Assembly (NCBI RefSeq): GCF_011751885.2
Contig: NZ_CP061771.1
Coordinates: 1,736,001-1,800,000, forward strand
DNA length: 64,000 nucleotides
Source: Salinibacterium sp. ZJ450
GTDB taxonomy: Bacteria; Actinomycetota; Actinomycetes; Actinomycetales; Microbacteriaceae
Reading direction: 5' to 3'
Shown here: piece by piece, positions 50,893 to 54,792 of the stretch
Layout: each line of letters opens with the position of its first letter
Position numbering within the stretch: the first letter of the stretch is position 1
The notes under the pieces: model-generated
Seen by the model: only the letters and a program-made list of their open reading frames with translations
Databases searched by the model: none
What the model was told of the DNA's origin: nothing
Position numbers and translations under genes: made by a program

Positions 50893-52098
50893 CTAGCGGC
50901 CCTCGAGCGCGTAGCCCTCCTCGCCGTGCACGACGGTGTCGATGCCGGCGATCTCGTCTTCGTTCTTCACCCGGAAGCCGACCGTCTTCTCGATCGCGAA
51001 GCCGACGATGTAGGCGACGACGAAGGAGTAGATCAGCACGCCAAACGCGGCGATCGCCTGCACGGTCAGCTGGCCGAAGTCGCCGCCGGTGAACAGGCCG
51101 GTTTCGGTGGCGAAGAAGCCGAGGTACAGGGTTCCCATCAGGCCACCGACCAGGTGGATGCCGACCACGTCAAGCGAGTCGTCGAAGCCCAGCTTGAACT
51201 TGAGCTCTACCGCCAGGGCGCACACGGCACCGGCGACGACACCGAGCACCAGGGCCCAGCCCGGGGTCAGGTTGGCGCAGGCGGGGGTGATCGCGACGAG
51301 GCCGGCCACAGCGCCGGAGGCGGCTCCGACCGAGGTGGACTTGCCATCCTTGACCTTCTCGATAACCATCCAGCCGATGATCGCGGCAGCGGTGGCGCCC
51401 AGCGTGTTGACGACGATCAGGCCCACGTTCTGCAGGTCGTTCAGCCACTCCGCGCCGGCGTTGAAGCCGAACCAGCCGAACCAGAGAATCGAAGCGCCGA
51501 GCAGCACCAGCGGCACGTTGTGCGGCTTGTGCGCACCCTTCTGGAACACGGCACGCTTGCCGAGCACCAGCGACAGGGCGAGCGCTGCGGCGCCGGCGTT
51601 GATGTGCACCGCAGTACCACCGGCGTAGTCGATCACCGCCGGCAGGCCGAGGGTCTCGCCGAGGCTGAAGATCCAGCCGCCGCCCCAGACCCAAGCGGCC
51701 ACCGGGAAGTAGACCAGGGTTGCGAAGATCCCGGCGAAGATCATCCAGGAGCCGAACTTGGCCCGGTCGGCGATCGCGCCGGAGATCAACGCGACGGTGA
51801 TGATCGCGAAGGTTGCGCCGTAGGCGGCGCCGATCAGCGCCTCATTGTCGGCCGAGGCCAGACCGAAGTCCGAGAACGGGTTGCCGGAGAATGACCACAC
51901 CGAGTCGACCACCGACATGTTGGCGCCGTACAGAATCCACAGCACGCTGACGAGTCCGAGAGCGCCGAAGCTCATCATCATCATGCTGACGACGCTCTTG
52001 GCCTTCACCAGACCGCCGTAGAAGAAGGCGACGCCCGGTGTCATGAAGAGCACGAGAGCGGTGGCGGTGATCGCCCACGCGAGGTTGCCGGTATCCAT
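50893..52098 (-). CDS. amt: Ammonium transporter
   Basis: Amt conducts ammonium/ammonia across the membrane. The 401-residue protein has eleven helices. Key blocks are FMTPGVAFFYGGLVKAKSV, DYAGGTAVHINAGAAALAL with the first pore His, FGWFGFNAGAEW, GLVAITPACANL, and DVVGIHLVGGLMGTLYLG with the second. I chose the ATG at 52096-52098 (AGGAA upstream); a GTG five codons earlier is the alternative. No glnK or glnD follows, unlike many actinobacteria, so a PII partner would be encoded elsewhere. A GlnR-type box lies about 110 bases upstream. Confidence 0.97.
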   Translation of the reverse strand: MDTGNLAWAITATALVLFMTPGVAFFYGGLVKAKSVVSMMMMSFGALGLVSVLWILYGANMSVVDSVWSFSGNPFSDFGLASADNEALIGAAYGATFAIITVALISGAIADRAKFGSWMIFAGIFATLVYFPVAAWVWGGGWIFSLGETLGLPAVIDYAGGTAVHINAGAAALALSLVLGKRAVFQKGAHKPHNVPLVLLGASILWFGWFGFNAGAEWLNDLQNVGLIVVNTLGATAAAIIGWMVIEKVKDGKSTSVGAASGAVAGLVAITPACANLTPGWALVLGVVAGAVCALAVELKFKLGFDDSLDVVGIHLVGGLMGTLYLGFFATETGLFTGGDFGQLTVQAIAAFGVLIYSFVVAYIVGFAIEKTVGFRVKNEDEIAGIDTVVHGEEGYALEGR

Positions 52099-52208
52099 GT
52101 GAGTTCCTAACACTTCTGGGGTTGAGCAGGATGTGTCGTGACGAACGAGGCTCGTCTCGGGTACGAAGCCAGTGTGGAACTCGCATATTTCGGCTGCGCT
52201 GTCGCTGT

Positions 52209-52263: not shown

Positions 52264-53649
52264 CTAGTCGTTTTGGAAAACGTCCGGCACACCGTCGCGA
52301 TTCGTGTCCACCTGCTCGAGGCGGCGCTGGTTGCGGTAGTGCCGGTTGCGCCCGCCCAGCACGATGGCGGCGAGGCCCCCAGCGAGCAGCGAACCCGCGA
52401 GGATGGCGATCTTCGCGGTGTCGTCCAGCTCGCTGCCCAGCCCGAAGCTCAGCTCGCTGATCAGGAGAGAGACGGTGAAGCCGATTCCGCCCAGAATGCC
52501 AAGACCGAACACGTCGATCCAGGCGAGGCCTCGGGGCAGGGTGATCCCCGGCATGCGGGTGACCAGCCAGGTGGCCCCGGTGATGCCGATGGTCTTTCCC
52601 ACAATCAACGCCGCGATGATGCCGATCGCCACCGGGCTGCTGAGCGCGGCGCCGAGCGCCTGCCAGCCGCCGATGGCGACCCCGGCCGAGAAGAAGGCGA
52701 ACACCGGAACGGCGAACCCGGTGGACAGCGGCCGGATCCGGTGCTCGAGCACTTCGGCGAGGCCGGGCCGGCTGGCCTCGTCTGTGATACCGCGCGCCTC
52801 GGCCGCCGCGCGCACCGCCGGGCTACGTCGAACCGGGATGGTGAAGGCCAGCAGTACGCCGGCGACGGTGGCGTGCACGCCGGAGGAGTACATGAAGAAC
52901 CAGACCAGAAGCCCGATCGGCAGCAGCACCAGCCAGGCGGCGGTGGGTCGAACCAGGAAGAACCAGGTGAACTTCTGGGCGAGCAGCCCGAAGACGGCCA
53001 GGCCGAGGAACATCGCCAGCAGGTAGCCCGGCCGCACGCCGTCGGAGTAGAAGAAGGCGATGATCCCGATGCCGAGCAGATCATCGACCACGGCGAGAGT
53101 CAGCAGGAAGGTGCGCATCGCCGCGGGGAGGTGCGTGCCGATGACGGCGAGCACGGCGAGGGCGAACGCGATGTCGGTGGCGACGGGAATCGCCCACCCC
53201 CGCTGCACCTCGGGTGAGGACTGCAGGGTGATCAGCGCGTAGATCACGGCGGGCAGCGCCACGCCGCCCACGGCCGCCATCACCGGCATCAGCGCCTTTC
53301 GCGGGTCGCGCAGTTCACCGGCGACGAACTCCCGCTTCAGTTCCAGCCCGGCCAGGAAGAAGAACACCGCAAGCAGCCCGTCTGCGGCGAGGTGGCCGAC
53401 ACTGATGTGCCACTCGAAGTCGCCGAACGTCAGCCCCAGTTCGGTGTCGCGCAGCGTGAAATACCAGTCGGCGAGCGGCGAATTGGCCGCGATCAGCGCG
53501 GCTAGCGTGGCGATCAGCAGCAGGATGCCGCCGACGGTCTCCTTGCGCAGGATGTTCTCGATGCGCAGCGACTCTGCGAACCGATCCAGGCCGGGCGGCG
53601 GGGTGGGGCGATTTGCCGGGGTAGGTCGATCAGGCGGGGTGGTGGACAC
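52264..53649 (-). CDS. nhaA: Na+/H+ antiporter NhaA with C-terminal calcium-loop-like tail
   Basis: NhaA expels Na+ in exchange for protons. The 461-residue protein has about twelve membrane helices. The paired aspartates of ion binding are in [12 protein letters not shown], and [15 protein letters not shown] is also present. The cytoplasmic C-terminus ends [15 protein letters not shown], matching the DxNxDGxxD calcium-binding loop seen in dockerin and thrombospondin type 3 repeats, and unusual for NhaA. I chose GTG at 53647-53649, five bases after AGGAG; an ATG at 53685 falls inside a leader hairpin and lacks a ribosome binding site. Confidence 0.96.
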
Positions 53650-53738
53650 GGGAACTCCTGCAGGCAGCGCGAAGGGCGTACCCATGCCGGTTGCGGCATG
53701 GAGCCGACCAGACTTCCCGGCACTCCACGGTCAGCCTA
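53650..53738 (-). promoter_or_regulatory. Structured leader of nhaA, possible ion-responsive RNA
   Basis: TAGGCT (53738-53733) fits a -10 box, giving a leader of about 77 bases. The transcript carries GGAGT then CCGGGAAGTCTGGTCGGC, forming GCCG/CGGC with a purine-rich loop and flanking GGA/TCC pairing. A perfect 8-bp hairpin follows (53701-53694 with 53689-53682, loop CAAC), then the AGGAG site. The first element resembles leaders I associate with nhaA-type genes and reported nhaA RNA motifs; class membership and sodium sensing are not demonstrated. Confidence 0.55.
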
Positions 53739-53742
53739 CAAG

Positions 53743-53769
53743 GGGCGCCGGCCCATCCGGGCCCGTGCC
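53743..53769 (-). terminator. Imperfect hairpin after zapE
   Basis: GGCCC and GGGCC pair around GGAT, with GGC/GCC continuing across mismatches, directly after the zapE stop at 53770. It lies just ahead of the inferred nhaA -10 box. Confidence 0.4.
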
Positions 53770-54792
53770 CTACTGCGGCTGATGGGTGGTGAGCGCAATC
53801 ATGCGGGAGATCGCTCGCAGGTACTTCTTGCGGTAGCCGCCGTTCAGCATGTCCTCGGCGAACACCTCATCGAGCGGGATGCCGCTTGCCACGATCTCCA
53901 CCTGAGCGTCGTACAGCCGGTCGACGAAGGCAACCAGCCGCAGCGCATCGGTCTGCGCGGTGAGTTCGTGCACGTTCGTCAGGCCGATCGCCGGCAGCCC
54001 GTCGACGAGCTTCACGTAGCGCGACGGGTGAATCGTGGTGAGATGCTGCAGCAGTGCGGAGAAATCATCGACGGTGCTGCCCCGCGGCAGGTCGGCGACG
54101 GCCGCCCGGAACTCGCCGTCGTCCAGTGCCACCGCGTGGCCCTCGAAGTGGCGGCGCCGATAATCGAGTCCGTCGATGCGGAAGGTGTGGAACCGCGCAG
54201 ACAGCCCCTGGATCTCGCGCAGGAAATCGGATGCCGCGAACCGGCCCTCACCCAGCGCATTCGGTGGCGTATTCGATGTCGCCGCGATCCGGGTGCCGGT
54301 CTCGACCAGTTCACCGAGCAGCCGGGTCATCATCATGGTGTCGCCCGGGTCGTCCAACTCGAACTCGTCGATCGCGATCAGGGAGGCGCCGCGCAGCAAC
54401 TGCACCGCCTGCTGATAGCCGAGCGCGCCGATCAACGCCGTGTACTCGATGAACGTGCCGAAGTACTTACGACCGGGAGCACGGTGCCACAGGGCGGCCA
54501 GCAGGTGGGTCTTGCCCACACCGAAACCGCCGTCGAGGTAGATGCCGGGCAACTGCGGCGGCGTTTTACGCCGCGAGAACAGGCCTCCGACAGGCTTCCA
54601 GCCGTCGAGGAAGGTGTGCATCGCCGACACCGCCTCCGCCTGCGACGGGTACTCGACATCCGGTACATAGTTATCGAGAGTGGCGTGCAAGAACTGCCGC
54701 GGCGGCACCAACTGGGCGGCGATCTCGGTGCCGCTGAGTGACGGCGACCGGTCGACGAGGCGGCCCAAACGGGTGATCGGTTCTGAAGTCAT
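53770..54792 (-). CDS. zapE: ZapE/AFG1-family ATPase
   Basis: AFG1-like ATPases include ZapE, which affects Z-ring stability in enteric bacteria; the actinobacterial role is unknown. The 340-residue protein has Walker A LDGGFGVGKTHLLAALW, Walker B SLIAIDEFELDDPGD, the TRIAATSNTPPNALGEG sensor region and FHTFRIDGLDYRRR. ATG start at 54790-54792. It is transcribed away from the sulfurtransferase gene, with a 167-base shared upstream region. Confidence 0.93.
   Translation of the reverse strand: MTSEPITRLGRLVDRSPSLSGTEIAAQLVPPRQFLHATLDNYVPDVEYPSQAEAVSAMHTFLDGWKPVGGLFSRRKTPPQLPGIYLDGGFGVGKTHLLAALWHRAPGRKYFGTFIEYTALIGALGYQQAVQLLRGASLIAIDEFELDDPGDTMMMTRLLGELVETGTRIAATSNTPPNALGEGRFAASDFLREIQGLSARFHTFRIDGLDYRRRHFEGHAVALDDGEFRAAVADLPRGSTVDDFSALLQHLTTIHPSRYVKLVDGLPAIGLTNVHELTAQTDALRLVAFVDRLYDAQVEIVASGIPLDEVFAEDMLNGGYRKKYLRAISRMIALTTHQPQ

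Follow-up and report, generated by a model that had tools for sequence, protein, structure and literature searches.

The nhaA-I motif represents the Li+-I riboswitch, with rare variants that form the Na+-II class, and the accessible text of the same work describes the known Li+ and Na+ riboswitches as activating (White et al. 2022, PMC9646797). That text assigns the nhaA-II motif to some Gammaproteobacteria (PMC9646797), and the portions available of the two main papers place the known Li+ and Na+ riboswitch classes in phyla other than Actinomycetota (PMC9337991, PMC9646797). In the literature searched, no description of sodium sensing at the RNA level in Actinomycetota was found. The core string of the element reported here, queried in five spellings, had no match there, most subscription journals and bioRxiv preprints lying outside the scope, and the literature on actinobacterial sodium and nhaA leader RNAs, represented mostly by listing entries, held nothing recognised as this element. 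Nor was a description of it found in the available portions of PMC8632094, PMC7266159 and PMC2864571, or by term in PMC8079986.

The nhaA leader in the window

Within the window, by which we mean the whole 64-kb stretch of DNA that was analysed, nhaA lies on the minus strand (coding region 52264..53649, GTG start at 53649-53647). Its product matches Pfam PF06965 (2e-124) and, above cut-off, NCBIfam TIGR00773, both matches being taken on a longer frame starting at 53685. The gene directly upstream on the same strand is zapE (53770..54792; NCBIfam NF040713, 1.1e-61), which lies outside the element, and the ammonium transporter gene amt (50893-52113) is found just downstream of nhaA, also on the same strand.

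Following the minus strand, the end of zapE (53770) gives way after a short gap to the -10 box TAGGCT (53738-53733), the 25-nt element GGAGTGCCGGGAAGTCTGGTCGGCT (53726-53702), an 8-bp hairpin, the Shine-Dalgarno sequence AGGAG (53659-53655) and the GTG. An earlier sequence-only reading had described a -10 box and a leader of about 77 bases with two hairpins in front of nhaA, and these can be read directly on the minus strand; the leader measures 77 nt from the predicted +1 (G53726). The first hairpin, P1, pairs 53721-53718 with 53706-53703, giving four base pairs (GCCG/CGGC) that enclose the 11-nt loop GGAAGTCTGGT (53717-53707), with positions -2 (53722) and 19 (53702), T and T in the window, facing each other at its base. 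The second hairpin has the perfect 8-bp stem originally described (53701-53694 with 53689-53682, loop CAAC), but 22 nt separate its end from the Shine-Dalgarno sequence, so its placement 'just before' the ribosome binding site was loose. Two ATGs fall within it, at 53699 in the 5' arm and at 53685 in the 3' arm, the latter in frame with nhaA. The suggestion that start selection depends on folding found no backing in the relatives, which by eye start after their own Shine-Dalgarno sequences and do not have a hairpin ATG as a common feature.

Taken singly, this leader gives little sign of its structure. A promoter scan returned no -35/-10 pair; the -10 box is called from its position and from the relatives. 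The leader (53650-53738) folds no better than expected by chance (z -0.69; 52 of 200 shuffles fold equally well or better), P1 is absent from its predicted single-sequence fold, and the longer stretch 53650-53770, which takes in sequence upstream of the predicted start, reaches z -2.61. It is comparison with relatives that reveals the element: a 25-position covariance model built from them, R1, matches the window copy with 42 bits (E 1.2e-7); among the 13 matches listed for R1 within the 64 kb, the runner-up has E 0.16.

Recurrence across Actinomycetota

The consensus of the element spans 25 nt and reads GGWGN-GCCG-GGAAGYCUGGU-CGGC-N. Used as a DNA query, the window leader had matches in 70 of 199 relatives; among the matches listed, all but one fell on query positions 28-88, and several of these directly precede nhaA. 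Allowing up to one mismatch, the 18-nt core occurs in 157 of the family's 299 genomes, compared with one genome for the reversed control. Patterns in which the stem letters were left free matched 209 of 396 genomes at the level of the order and 250 of 394 at that of the class, counts that include chance matches, as the backward control of the order scan hit about 27 of 396 genomes and the class-scan control also matched others. Across the phylum, R1 found 96 of 396 genomes at E <= 0.001 in a scan whose stricter filters lose weak matches. Judged by their names, all 36 plasmid records matched at E up to 10 are actinobacterial, and the consensus pattern had no match in viral_contigs.

Copies that overlapped at a single place were counted once, leaving 268 distinct copies; four of the fetched loci were dropped, namely three of 247 with fewer than three stem pairs and one with an AT-rich chance stem. 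The copies are related by descent, and dereplication or weights were applied in the tests of couplings, word enrichment, leader pairing, leader swapping, folding and accessibility. Because the loop letters belonged to the search patterns, and R1 was built from copies chosen in that way, the invariance of the loop is partly a product of selection.

The genome of the window carries four copies, one before each of its two nhaA genes, one before a glycosyltransferase gene and one before the gene for an ABC transporter ATPase. Elements at 749235, 750816 and 753605 form a cluster of about 4.5 kb (locus L146, 745000-756000 of the same genome) in front of the second nhaA, the ABC transporter ATPase gene and the glycosyltransferase gene, the last with a macrolide/rifamycin-type likeness below cut-offs. 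The element does not accompany every nhaA gene. R1 had no match at E 0.1 in eight of 31 actinobacterial loci from the nhaA search (L010, L011, L014-L017, L022, L034), and in some of the remaining loci the match was not placed at nhaA. By eye, the element is also absent upstream of nhaA on two plasmids, from Glutamicibacter nicotianae and Tsukamurella (L302, L303); therefore, some nhaA genes would escape this control.

Position at the predicted transcription start

A TANNNT box is found 6-8 nt before the first G of the element in 229 of the 268 copies (shuffled sequences: mean 4.55, maximum 12), and the spacing is exactly 7 nt in 168 of them. Given this fixed distance from the -10 box, the RNA very probably begins with the element, whose first G is thus the predicted start. 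A start downstream of the hairpins, which would have weighed against the sequence-only reading, is not what these positions predict; the predicted start lies upstream of them. For a riboswitch, confinement to the very 5' end is unusual, which counts against reading the element as one. As another candidate for this position, a leaderless upstream reading frame was rejected, as only 140 of 268 copies have T at position -2, where the middle letter of a possible GTG would fall.

Compensatory changes and a non-Watson-Crick pair

Over the 268 copies the P1 stem reads GCCG/CGGC in 250, GTCG/CGAC in 12 and GCTG/CAGC in one, with a single wobble in three and a single mismatch in two. The GTCG/CGAC form occurs in at least six families in the lists from the order and class scans, whose patterns imposed no stem letters. 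Among 52 distinct rows, eight cells were double-changed and the covariation score was 0.163, values that none of 500 shuffles reached in either case, and stem partners slid out of register scored below the true ones. Two of the five covariation measures were not striking, the number of pairs with a double change being reached by 29 of 500 shuffles and that of further pair types by 365 of 500. Covariation across homologous leaders, which the sequence-only reading had named as its test, is present, and the structured leader RNA that it proposed before nhaA is a real observation, larger than first described.

Mutual information over all positions gave its strongest couplings outside the -10 region to -2:19 (z 15.5) and 1:17 (z 11.2); among all position pairs, -2:19 ranks second, the first lying inside the -10 region. 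The -2:19 pair at the base of P1 is U.G in 118 of the 268 copies, C.A in 45, A.A in 32, A.G in 18 and A.C in 14, and it is Watson-Crick in 15 compared with 79 expected. U.G and C.A can adopt a common wobble geometry. Both states are found in at least 10 families (f3, f9, f12, f14, f15, f18, f29, f36, f38, f53) and have therefore probably been exchanged repeatedly. Conservation extends to the flank, where 144 copies collected by the core pattern only, with the flank outside the pattern and up to one mismatch in the search or two in the script, have G at positions -6 (143), -5 (141), -3 (140) and -1 (143).

Thermodynamic folding assigned P1 a mean probability of 0.014, exceeding 0.5 in none of 237 leaders, with 0.052 in shuffled leaders. 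Since folding energy gives P1 so low a probability, its assignment rests on the covariation. A shorter core stem, CCGG/CUGG, is compatible with every copy, yet was rejected for having no double change. What emerges is a conserved, structured 5' leader RNA with compensatory changes, as is generally expected of riboswitches.

Genes downstream of the element

Targets were assigned by similarity to representative proteins. The 268 copies precede genes for NhaA (181), CPA1 (24), an ABC ATPase (11), TrkH (5), NhaB (4), MrpA-like proteins (4), CBS proteins (3), NhaD/CitMHS-like proteins (2) and glycosyltransferases (2), with 32 lacking an assignment; CPA1, ABC, TrkH, NhaB, MrpA-like or NhaD-like genes account for 50 of the 87 non-NhaA copies. 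Representatives matched NhaB (NCBIfam) and Na_H_Exchanger, TrkH, CitMHS_2 and Proton_antipo_M (Pfam) above cut-off. The CBS representative fell below the Pfam cut-off, those for ABC and glycosyltransferase gave many or general families only, and the best NCBIfam match of a CPA1 protein, a potassium/proton antiporter, was below cut-off. Scanning 22 of 40 candidate frames from copies with no assigned target yielded a CPA exchanger, a cation efflux protein, four alpha/beta hydrolases, a membrane pyrophosphatase, and STAS, Crp-like, Band 7 and M48 peptidase-like proteins, with eight frames giving no family.

The annotation of 12 of the 36 matched plasmid records was read. Targets there include nhaA in Streptomyces globosus, Glutamicibacter and Arthrobacter; a cation:proton antiporter-CBS-ArsB/NhaD series on one Streptomyces plasmid and a Na+/H+ antiporter on another; a cation:proton antiporter in Kitasatospora; ArsB/NhaD in Mycobacterium branderi; and a hydrolase-nhaA pair in Rhodococcus rhodochrous. 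Three records fit poorly, one having a STAS gene annotated over the element and two having hydrolases, and one record has no annotation at the element.

Alpha/beta hydrolase genes follow the element at four loci (L289, L290, L291, L256), the one in L291 directly before nhaA. At a further locus (L253) the element is followed by a gene for a peptidase M48-like protein, a membrane-protease target that is unexpected for a cation regulon.

In the accessible text of its description, Pontimonas salivibrio, placed there in Microbacteriaceae, possesses neither NhaA nor NhaB, and a multisubunit Na+ exporter is present (PMC6106888). In the genome putatively identified as this species (G031), the element precedes an MrpA-like gene (L050), a biological fit that speaks for the ion-responsive RNA proposed below. 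The controlled genes form a coherent set, another feature generally expected of riboswitches, and one made up largely of monovalent-cation transporters, which fits the ion signal that the sequence-only reading had proposed.

Probable alternative pairing with the downstream leader

When leaders were compared with swapped ones, a hairpin directly 3' of the element was favoured (z 9.7, 126 leaders), with controls giving z -1.8 to 1.3 at four places and 1.9 at an overlapping one. The second hairpin described in the sequence-only reading thus sits at a place where leaders do favour one. It is outside the conserved element, however, and is common yet optional and variable, many leaders having none. 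Three loci (L254, L255, L286) have in common a longer, similar leader 3' of the element, which by eye includes a GGGGC/GGGGTC-TTTT stretch, and in two of them (L255, L286) the element precedes a CPA-type antiporter gene.

Outside the element, no word is more enriched in the leaders than (C)GACC(C), which is complementary to GGUCG in the core; GACCC occurs in 49 leaders compared with 11.1 expected. CGACC or a wobble form of it occurs in 133 of 214 leaders, compared with 23 and 34 of 214 for control words, and in 57 of the 133 it is placed 10-12 nt after the element. GGUCG outperformed all 19 of its own permutations, and GGUCGGC all but one to three of 60. Core positions 12-16 pair with the downstream leader with a probability of 0.785 compared with 0.623 after dinucleotide shuffling (237 leaders), and loop positions 4-14, which contain three of the GGUCG letters, with 0.601 compared with 0.522. 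This excess complementarity of the 3' half of the element to its leader makes two mutually exclusive folds likely. With covariation demanding P1 and energy favouring the alternative, a two-state RNA in which P1 needs help is the simplest reading. Two features of the window leader count against this reading: a clear CGACC is missing, and positions -2 and 19 are both T.

Other pairings were tried and rejected. Loop-leader pairing beyond GGUCG is unsupported, as AGTCTGG did not stand out from its permutations (34 and 37 of 60 equally good), and for an extended helix between GGWGNG and downstream leader sequence own pairing was below swapped pairing, one of 16 subset tests (-9..-1 with 8-22) reaching z 2.7. 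The leaders gave no support to a stem that sequesters the Shine-Dalgarno sequence with GACCC as its 5' arm, and no terminator stem from GACCC was found in the one locus scanned (L286).

Start codons were located for 173 of the 237 leaders. Forcing P1 raised the predicted Shine-Dalgarno accessibility only slightly, from 0.416 to 0.457, in these 173, with changes above 0.1 upward in 56 and downward in 27; merely masking the element gave 0.449, close to the forced-P1 value. Start codon accessibility did not rise (0.502 to 0.487). In the window, the predicted fold partly masks the Shine-Dalgarno sequence, which we do not take as general, and forcing P1 lowers accessibility of the GTG from 0.385 to 0.16.

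A possible ion-responsive switch and its rivals

We consider it probable, by a modest measure, that the element represents an undescribed class of cis-regulatory RNA at the 5' ends of antiporter and cation-transporter mRNAs in Actinomycetota, in which P1 is stabilised by a cation or pH signal, most likely Na+. It would alternate between two folds. In the first, P1 (GCCG/CGGC) would form with the non-Watson-Crick pair at its base, the conserved 11-nt loop and the 5' GGWG; in the second, the 3' half (GGUCG) would pair with the downstream leader, typically at CGACC. A Na+ load or alkalinity, the former being the likelier signal, would stabilise P1, shift the pairing of GGUCG and so change expression of the gene. 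The element is probably a riboswitch for Na+ or another monovalent-cation or pH signal, and we infer that Na+ would bind the RNA directly, acting on translation, with the bound state being ON. P1 as the ON form is weakly favoured, because known Li+ and Na+ riboswitches activate and forced P1 slightly opens the Shine-Dalgarno sequence on average; the closing of the window's start codon under forced P1 speaks against it. Against the cation reading as a whole stand those targets that are not transporters (glycosyltransferase, STAS, alpha/beta hydrolase, Crp-like).

A more specific proposal, which we would put at a little under even, is that of one more, separate kind of alkali-cation-sensing RNA, a 25-nt aptamer at +1 with a required U.G/C.A pair at the base of its hairpin that might act as the master switch of Na+/H+ antiporters throughout Actinomycetota, in Streptomyces, Rhodococcus, Mycobacterium and their relatives. 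If this is true, the aptamer would be among the smallest natural sensors. The element is small, sharply defined and phylum-wide, making the sodium question directly testable in Streptomyces or other laboratory actinobacteria. It also points to sodium-homeostasis candidates among genes of unknown role, and it could serve as a very short ion-responsive control part.

The same couplings, covariation and pair counts would apply equally to a leader RNA read by a protein or by some signal other than the cation, such as K+, c-di-AMP, an osmolyte or an RNA-binding regulator. The regulon does include K+ transport (TrkH, and CPA1 with its sub-cut-off potassium/proton antiporter match) and non-transport genes. 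We nevertheless judge this unlikely, as nhaA alone accounts for 181 of 268 copies and the NhaB, MrpA-like and NhaD-like genes are Na+ systems.

That the conserved letters are instead a DNA operator, bound by a dimeric repressor at +1 to +25, is improbable. GCCGnnnAGnCTnnnCGGC is an imperfect palindrome with palindromic outer and inner parts, the paired C1/G17 changes would preserve that symmetry, and the spacing from the -10 box is fixed. A dimer would, however, be expected to leave symmetric half-sites, whereas GGA (4-6) and GGT (12-14), which break the symmetry, are identical in all 144 copies. A palindrome also does not explain the avoidance of Watson-Crick pairs at -2:19, and an operator would not account for the excess RNA complementarity to the leader or for the same-strand placement of an assigned downstream target in 236 of 268 copies, the only orientation scored.

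There is likewise little to favour a remote relative, or a reduced version, of the nhaA-I (Li+-I/Na+-II) riboswitch. The nhaA-I consensus starts with GGGUG and contains UGGUCGG, and the element starts with GGUG or GGAG and contains the same 7-mer, a coincidence that we estimate at about 1 in 100 and hence not improbable by chance. The variable first hairpin of nhaA-I is absent from the element, as is its second stem GAUGGU/GCCAUC with the CGGGCC loop, which by eye does not appear in alignment A1. At the gathering score, Rfam had no match on the window element; with E up to 10, 601 bases of the window gave only a SAM-Chlorobi line (E 2, 16.1 bits versus 35), and with E up to 5, 20 related actinobacterial loci gave four lines, none on the element. 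The nhaA-I model (RF03057) did find the leader of Bradyrhizobium (L301) used as a positive control, in which R1 had no match at E 0.1, and gave no line on the scanned actinobacterial leaders. Judged by model match and second stem, the element thus fails as a predicted member of nhaA-I. Rfam 15, which we take to include the nhaA-II and DUF1646 models, gave no line for either on the leaders tested, the positive control covering nhaA-I only. Membership in the known nhaA or Na+ motif families, which the sequence-only reading cited, is therefore unsupported in the window and the 20 loci.

A constitutive 5' hairpin that stabilises the mRNA or sets translation in response to no signal is very improbable, since 5'-terminal hairpins can protect mRNA but would explain neither the strong target bias to cation-transport genes nor the near-invariant flank letters outside the first search pattern.

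Comparison with known ion riboswitches

As far as the available text of its description goes, the nqrA-II motif resembles the element in being a riboswitch candidate before a sodium pump gene; unlike the element, it has four stem-loops and is found in five genera of Pasteurellaceae (PMC11109978). The DUF1646 motif, the Na+-I riboswitch, shares with it a broad regulon of sodium-related genes, and differs, in the accessible part of its report, by two extended stems named P1 and P2 (PMC9337991). The nhaA-II motif, described in the portion available as the Li+-II riboswitch, precedes nhaA, as the element does (PMC9646797). The closest likeness is to nhaA-I (RF03057; Li+-I, with rare Na+-II variants), also an nhaA leader RNA, with a 5' GG(G)UG and the string UGGUCGG. 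That motif has two hairpins in a 55-position model and belongs to Proteobacteria, whereas the element is a single 4-bp hairpin within 25 nt at the predicted start of the transcript in Actinomycetota, and we regard the likeness as a lead.
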